Below are positions 29,349 through 31,042 of a stretch of 64,000 bases of DNA, piece by piece. The first letter of the stretch is position 1. Each line of letters begins with the position of its first letter. The DNA lies in the NCBI GenBank assembly GCA_013298805.1, contig JAAFIU010000001.1, positions 1 to 64,000 of the forward strand, given 5' to 3'. The notes under the pieces were generated by a model that ran no database searches, had not been told where the DNA came from, and saw only the letters and a list, made by a program, of their open reading frames with translations. This stretch comes from Cytophagales bacterium (GTDB lineage Bacteria; Bacteroidota; Bacteroidia; Cytophagales; Spirosomataceae). A program made the translations under genes and the position numbers.

Positions 29349-29768
29349 CTAATTGCAATTCTTACAAATACCCTGCACTAATAAATTTGTCTCAATTCGT
29401 TGATAGCCTTCGGGAAGAATAATACTTGGAATGGTCACGTGGTCTAAACAGGTCGTTAGCCCACAAGCTGTACATTTAAAATGTACGTGGTCGTGATGAT
29501 GCTGATGGTCTTCTGAATGACAATTGTCTTTACAAATGGCATATTTTACGCCGCCTTCATCATCTAAAACTTTATGAATAATCCCTTTGTCTAAGAATGT
29601 TTTTAACGTTCGGTAAACGGTTACTCGGTCAAACTGTTCGGTTAATTGTCCTTCCACATCTGCATGAGCGAGTGCATGAGGCTTGCTCATGAATACCTGC
29701 AAGATTTCCTCCCGACAATCTGTTTGACGGAGTTTATAGTCTTTGAGTATGGTTTTTACTTCGCTCAT
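29349..29768 (-). CDS. Fur family transcriptional regulator
   Basis: RVTVYRTLKTFLDKGIIHKV, HVHFKCTACGLTTCLD, CKNCN. Confidence 0.9.
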   Translation of the reverse strand: MSEVKTILKDYKLRQTDCREEILQVFMSKPHALAHADVEGQLTEQFDRVTVYRTLKTFLDKGIIHKVLDDEGGVKYAICKDNCHSEDHQHHHDHVHFKCTACGLTTCLDHVTIPSIILPEGYQRIETNLLVQGICKNCN

Positions 29769-29844
29769 TTTGGGTTAGATTATATTTTTTGAGTCTGGAT
29801 ACTCTGTGTGATTCAAGTCTGAAAGCTGGAACCAGTAGCAAAAT

Positions 29845-30330
29845 TTACTCCCACATACAACTCACAATTATCTCATTATCGACGGCATATTTCAATGAAA
29901 CTTCAAGTTCTTGTAATTTAATTTTTTCAACATTATAAGTGTCTATATCATATTCAGAGTAAGAATTTTTAATTCTATCAATAGAATTATTGAGAGCTGA
30001 AATAACTTCTAATATCTGTTTAGGTGCGAACATAACAATATAAGTTTTACCATCTATTTCGAAAAACCCCTCTTCATCGAATAAACTGGTTGCAGAATCG
30101 TAAAAAGATAGTCCCTTCGGGTCTATTCCCCACTCGTACAAACTCATATTATCATTTCTTATAATATTTAAACAAACAATCCCCCCTCTAAAACCAATAA
30201 ACTTCAGATCTCTAATTGAATCTTGTTCAATACCTTGATTATCAACTTCAAATAATCCTAATGGTATAACTTGACCTGTAACAAATTTTGAATTCTGACT
30301 GTAAAACGAAAAACCGAATGAAGCACTCAT
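29845..30330 (-). CDS. Hypothetical protein; start codon lies in the target duplication of a MITE
   Basis: ORF continues 18 nt upstream into the MITE (MRLPCI-MSASFGF...). Confidence 0.6.
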   Translation of the reverse strand: MSASFGFSFYSQNSKFVTGQVIPLGLFEVDNQGIEQDSIRDLKFIGFRGGIVCLNIIRNDNMSLYEWGIDPKGLSFYDSATSLFDEEGFFEIDGKTYIVMFAPKQILEVISALNNSIDRIKNSYSEYDIDTYNVEKIKLQELEVSLKYAVDNEIIVSCMWE

Positions 30331-30334
30331 TATA

Positions 30335-30507
30335 CAGGGCAAACGCATGAGATTACTTTTATTTGGTTCAAGAAAAAATAGCTTGATTGGAAACCTTTAT
30401 AAAATGGAAATTTGACTACTTTGTATCGTCATTAAAAACTTTCCTCCAAATAATATTTGGAAATCTTTACCAAAAAGAGATAAATTATCTCTCATGCGTT
30501 TGCCCTG
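30335..30507. mobile_element. 173-bp MITE / non-autonomous IS derivative with 18-bp perfect TIRs
   Basis: TIR CAGGGCAAACGCATGAGA (30335-30352) and TCTCATGCGTTTGCCCTG (30490-30507); flanking 9-bp duplication CTCATTATA at 30326-30334 and 30508-30516. Confidence 0.92.
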
Positions 30508-30556
30508 CTCATTATATCAATAGTTTAATTTTGATTATTATCTGATTAAGAAGTTT

Positions 30557-30587
30557 ATAAGAGTAACTCGTTATGAATTACTCTTAT
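30557..30587 (-). terminator. Hairpin downstream of 30602-31042
   Basis: ATAAGAGTAA / TTACTCTTAT. Confidence 0.55.
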
Positions 30588-30601
30588 TCCCCTCTAAAAT
30601 A

Positions 30602-31042
30602 CTAAAATAATTTATCCCAAGGAATACGACTCAATAAAAGTACAAGTCCTAAACCGAAGAAGATTAAGGCATTTTTGTGTCTTACCGCTGAATCAATGGC
30701 TCTTTTATTTTTAGAGTAACCAACTGTGATTAAAGCAATTGCAATGATATTCGTTAAAATATGTTCAACTGCAATTTTACGATATTCCGCAATTTTCATT
30801 ACTTCTGAACCAAATTCTGTAAAAGCTTTTAATCCGAAAGGACTTAAAAATAAATATAAAACCAAGCCAATTAATAATTGTGTGTGGTTCGAAATCAAGA
30901 AGAAAAGACCCAATTTTCGGTCAGTTTCTGTGAATGCTGATTTTGAACTAAGACCCATTGCGGCTCTTACCAAAACAGCCAAACCTAATATCATCACAAC
31001 GAAGAAAAGTGCCTTGTGAATAAGTTGAAAAATTTCGTACAT
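30602..31042 (-). CDS. Four-TM membrane protein (homologues often labelled 'cytochrome B')
   Basis: Hydrophobic segments, conserved H in HKALF and NHTQLLIG. Confidence 0.6.
   Translation of the reverse strand: MYEIFQLIHKALFFVVMILGLAVLVRAAMGLSSKSAFTETDRKLGLFFLISNHTQLLIGLVLYLFLSPFGLKAFTEFGSEVMKIAEYRKIAVEHILTNIIAIALITVGYSKNKRAIDSAVRHKNALIFFGLGLVLLLSRIPWDKLF

Follow-up and report, generated by a model that had tools for sequence, protein, structure and literature searches.

A 173-bp MITE (31% GC) in the genome of a Cytophagales bacterium is very probably a recently transposed, non-autonomous element of the ISAs1 type, presumably mobilised in trans, that was inserted over an orphan gene's start codon. 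It occupies positions 30335-30507 of the window, the whole stretch of 64,000 nucleotides that was analysed. The features of the element and its target are as follows.

30335-30507, no strand assigned: MITE, non-autonomous, with ISAs1-type TIRs; five identical genome copies, each with its own 9-bp duplication
30335-30352, plus strand: left 18-bp TIR, CAGGGCAAACGCATGAGA; the reverse complement carries an upstream ATG (MRLPCI-)
30490-30507, minus strand: right 18-bp TIR, a perfect inverted copy of the left one, read from the sequence
30326-30334, no strand assigned: gene-side 9-bp target duplication, CTCATTATA, including the start codon of the ORF
30508-30516, no strand assigned: gene-distal 9-bp target duplication, CTCATTATA, including the second copy of the likely native start codon
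29845-30330, minus strand: orphan ORF of 161 aa, no family match, with its ATG within the duplication
30397-30495, minus strand: 32-aa frame within the element (MRDNLSLFGKDF...SIL*), probably incidental
30492-30512, minus strand: six-codon frame MSRANA*, opened by the displaced native start and stopping inside the TIR, read from the sequence

The initial annotation had described perfect 18-bp TIRs bounding a 173-bp element with perfect 9-bp flanking duplications, and all of these are present in the sequence. Its placement of the ATG of ORF 29845-30330 inside the duplication also holds, the gene-side copy reading TATAATGAG on the minus strand, and the in-frame upstream ATG attributed to the TIR is there, giving MRLPCI-M.... 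Between the TIRs lies an AT-rich interior of 137 bp. When up to three mismatches were allowed, these two TIRs were the only matches in the window, at a chance expectation of 0.03. The coding content of the element amounts to the 32-aa minus-strand frame, which is probably incidental; its second ATG and the ribosome-site-like stretch are not conserved in related elements.

Evidence for mobility comes from the remainder of the genome. The search for the TIR proposed in the initial annotation revealed four further copies of the element as well as ISAs1-like IS ends at contig ends. A TIR found only at this site, which had been considered there as an argument against an insertion, is thus not what the genome contains: five copies carry it, and 13 IS contig ends carry a TIR identical to it in 16-17 of 18 positions. 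The five copies of 173 bp are 100% identical, although short-read assembly may partly have evened out differences in their interiors. They are flanked by CTCATTATA, AATTTGTAC, GAATGGACT, GAAAGACCT, and ATTTTTTTC, all perfect duplications of 9 bp and all different. Five identical copies with their own perfect duplications exclude chance or a one-off palindrome, and since the duplications match at all five copies, chimeric assembly joins are ruled out. Of the other copies, the C117 copy has a thymidine kinase gene on one side and an Mpo1-like gene on the other, the C220 copy lies within an inverted repeat separating two convergent genes, the C243 copy precedes a gamma-glutamyltranspeptidase gene, and the C388 copy is inside a large ORF without Pfam match. 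The C220 site is empty in the congener G007, where the hairpin is whole (TAAAAAAGCAGAATGGATTTCCATTCTGCTTTTTT; L087:1897-1931), and at the C117 site, the aligned sequences of G007, G005, G004, G003, and G001 lack the 173 bp of the element. The claim of a recent insertion is therefore well supported by the identity of the copies, their perfect duplications and the empty alleles in sister species at two of the four other sites.

Two of these insertions have features of their own. The inverted repeat interrupted by the C220 copy (L010:2055-2227, corresponding to G000:C220:7654-7826) resembles a two-way terminator. The C388 copy (L012:2012-2184, corresponding to G000:C388:4711-4883) is situated about 50 codons past the ATG of a large membrane-like protein; the insertion adds 182 bases, and the reading frame should be broken.

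The target ORF appears to be confined to this species. A run of 161 open codons has a chance of about 3e-7 at the composition of the ORF, and searches of Pfam, NCBIfam, records of phages and plasmids, and 396 genomes from the phylum revealed no homologues. One viral contig with a 30% local match was treated as a chance hit; the match was centred on DNMSLYEW, the seed peptide by which it had been retrieved. The ORF is absent from all seven congeners tested. Accordingly, no empty-site allele for this particular copy was found in these seven genomes, which lack both the target ORF and the sequence flanking it. In congeners, a Fur-like gene (29349-29768) is a near neighbour of the gene at 30602-31042, with neither ORF nor element between them, and about 110 bp separate the two genes in G007. 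From this arrangement, the ORF looks like a species-specific gain into which the MITE was inserted later. Window positions 29769-30601 form a species-specific stretch containing the orphan ORF, flanked by genes that are near-adjacent in congeners with an assembled junction. If the element is removed and the flanks are joined, a TAA stands in frame five codons before the ATG, so that this ATG within the duplication is likely to be the native start.

The partner element, left unnamed in the initial annotation, can now be assigned on the basis of its ends, probably to the ISAs1 family. ISAs1 elements usually end in CAGGG and produce duplications of 8-10 bp. Thirteen contig ends of the same genome carry a sequence with the terminus TAGGGCAAACGCA[T/C]GAGA and break about 105-125 bases inside it, presumably due to the IS being repeated. 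All other TIR matches in the genome with up to two mismatches are such contig ends, of which ten are right ends of ISAs1-like character and three are left ends; a search for more left ends returned the same three only. Ten of the 13 code for the C-terminal 32-33 residues of an ISAs1-like transposase, with 66-67% identity to the transposase of G020, a genome of another genus of the same family. Two left-right pairs of IS ends share 9-bp flanks, GATTGCTAC and AATTTTTGA, respectively, indicating that the resident IS makes 9-bp duplications in this genome. A search with the NF033564 profile for a full ISAs1 transposase in the same genome matched nothing, the IS interior being unassembled and the ends alone present; from these contig ends we infer an intact partner IS in this strain.

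An intact IS of 1167 bp is available for comparison in G020. Its 18-bp TIRs match each other in 18 of 18 positions, it is flanked by the 9-bp duplication TATAAAGAT, and it encodes a transposase of 364 aa (NF033564 transpos_ISAs1, E=1.2e-99). The TIR of the MITE is identical in 17 of 18 positions to that of the G020 IS and to the left ends in its own genome, and in 16 of 18 to the right ends there. The terminal base is T in the IS and C in the MITE, and the right end of the IS has one further difference. Similarity between MITE and IS is limited to this terminal region, 17-18 bp, or up to 26 bp in the case of the right end of the G020 IS. The MITE, the G020 IS and the two IS insertions in its own genome have a duplication length of 9 bp in common. 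The MITE thus resembles ISAs1-family IS (NF033564) in TIR sequence and duplication, but it has no transposase and shares with them the ends alone.

According to the proposed mechanism, resident ISAs1-family IS would supply a transposase that recognises in trans the shared TIR, [C/T]AGGGCAAACGCA[T/C]GAGA, and mobilises the 173-bp element. Insertion at a staggered cut followed by repair would yield the 9-bp duplication. As the nine duplicated bases span the start codon of the gene, an ATG is now present on both sides. The gene-side ATG still begins an intact ORF; the distal ATG, joined to the native leader, opens a six-codon frame only. In read-through transcripts, the TIRs would fold to a stem of 18 bp whose end lies five bases short of the ATG, and translation should be lowered. 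Trans-mobilisation by ISAs1 we infer from the sequences compared, and the effect of the element on the gene from predicted folding.

The element could also have arisen by internal deletion from a single specific ISAs1 copy, with promoter and transposase start retained. The TIRs match ISAs1, and GGAGGAAAG...ATG on the minus strand looks like a ribosome site followed by a start. Such an origin is nevertheless unlikely, because similarity to the IS does not extend beyond the terminal region described above, the 32-aa frame is unlike the start of the IS transposase, and the second ATG is absent from related elements. That the mover was instead the transposase of another IS family making 9-bp duplications, for example of the IS5/IS903 type as with MITEAba12, would be consistent with such duplications being made outside ISAs1 as well (PMC6382973). 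This must be regarded as highly improbable, since the remaining TIR matches in the genome with up to two mismatches are contig ends, ten of them ISAs1-like right ends, including two left-right pairs sharing duplications, and the search of the genome yielded no IS of another family bearing this TIR. The TIR also differs from those of MITEAba12 and ISAba12, and no IS5-family element with this TIR was found.

MITEAba12 from Acinetobacter, 113 bp long with the 16-bp TIRs of ISAba12 (PMC6382973), is similar in design to the ISAs1-type MITE. Both are short and non-coding, are flanked by 9-bp duplications, have TIRs near-identical to a co-resident IS with similarity to it only there, and may sit in or beside genes (PMC6382973). 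Their TIR sequences are unrelated, however, and mobilisation was observed for MITEAba12, whereas it is proposed here. MITECca01 of Cardinium is likewise linked to an IS and belongs to the same phylum, and its upkeep by intact parental IS copies has been supposed, but it is connected to the IS982 family and is about 240 bp long (PMC9769881). In Porphyromonas gingivalis, also a member of the Bacteroidota, the TIRs of BrickBuilt, MITE239, MITE700, and MITEPgRS match resident IS; these MITEs were matched to IS5-family elements, and their TIRs differ from the one described here (PMC4596501).

As to expression of the orphan gene, reduced translation appears likelier than activation, because the native start opens MSRANA* and because the ribosome-binding region would be buried in the TIR stem in read-through transcripts. 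The gene-side ATG comes directly after the TIR. For the bases -20 to -5 before it, the predicted unpaired fraction drops from 0.63 in the empty arrangement to 0.00 with the element, if it is transcribed through; assumed transcripts were used for folding. Activation would be expected if the element were a portable promoter and start-codon donor, kept because it turns on the orphan gene, whose translation would then begin at the TIR ATG (MRLPCI-M...). The TIR does provide this ATG in frame, and outward promoters are found in other bacterial MITEs, such as Correia elements and MITEAba12 (PMC10969869). The minus strand within the element, however, showed no TANNTTTG promoter of the Bacteroidetes type, just sites with one mismatch that lacked an accompanying TTTG, and no sigma-70-like site; the TIR ATG is itself buried in the predicted stem, and the copies elsewhere, between or inside genes, have no orientation in common. 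A role of this kind is quite unlikely. Very improbable, too, is that insertion at the start codon turned the orphan leader into a structured switch in which the TIR stem gates the real start. The stop of the six-codon leader frame overlaps the start of the 32-codon element frame, and if a switch did exist, the element would be a portable translational regulator and not a plain knock-down.

In a limited search of the open literature, no ISAs1-linked MITE already described was found. The element represents an additional MITE family, present in a few genomes of one Cytophagales family and paired with a named IS family, ISAs1, and the site is a tidy natural case in which the target duplication keeps the start codon while all upstream sequence is replaced. 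About 0.6% of random 9-bp insertions are estimated to cover a start codon (approximately 4500 genes x 7 positions / 4.87 Mb), and at this rate the coincidence is mild. The mobile element is of an ordinary type, if neatly placed, and the wider consequence is modest.

Related elements with 73-79% identity are present in G013, G035, G001, G003, and G163, and partially in G004, all from the same family. The 173-bp element of G013 is 79% identical and has a perfect 9-bp duplication, GCCGCGCTC; the flanks of the others look decayed. A 22-base pattern searched among 85,462 species genomes was detected in three contigs only, from two Cytophagales MAGs, and the element was not found in viral contigs and plasmids. 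The MITE family is old, narrowly spread and recently active in at least two genomes. In G005 and G035 (L033 and L036, around 1501-1531), a 31-base stretch upstream of a lipoprotein-like gene resembles element positions 77-105. The gene that these matches immediately precede is unrelated, and they were set aside; their likeness is probably due to chance or to a shared promoter-like motif.
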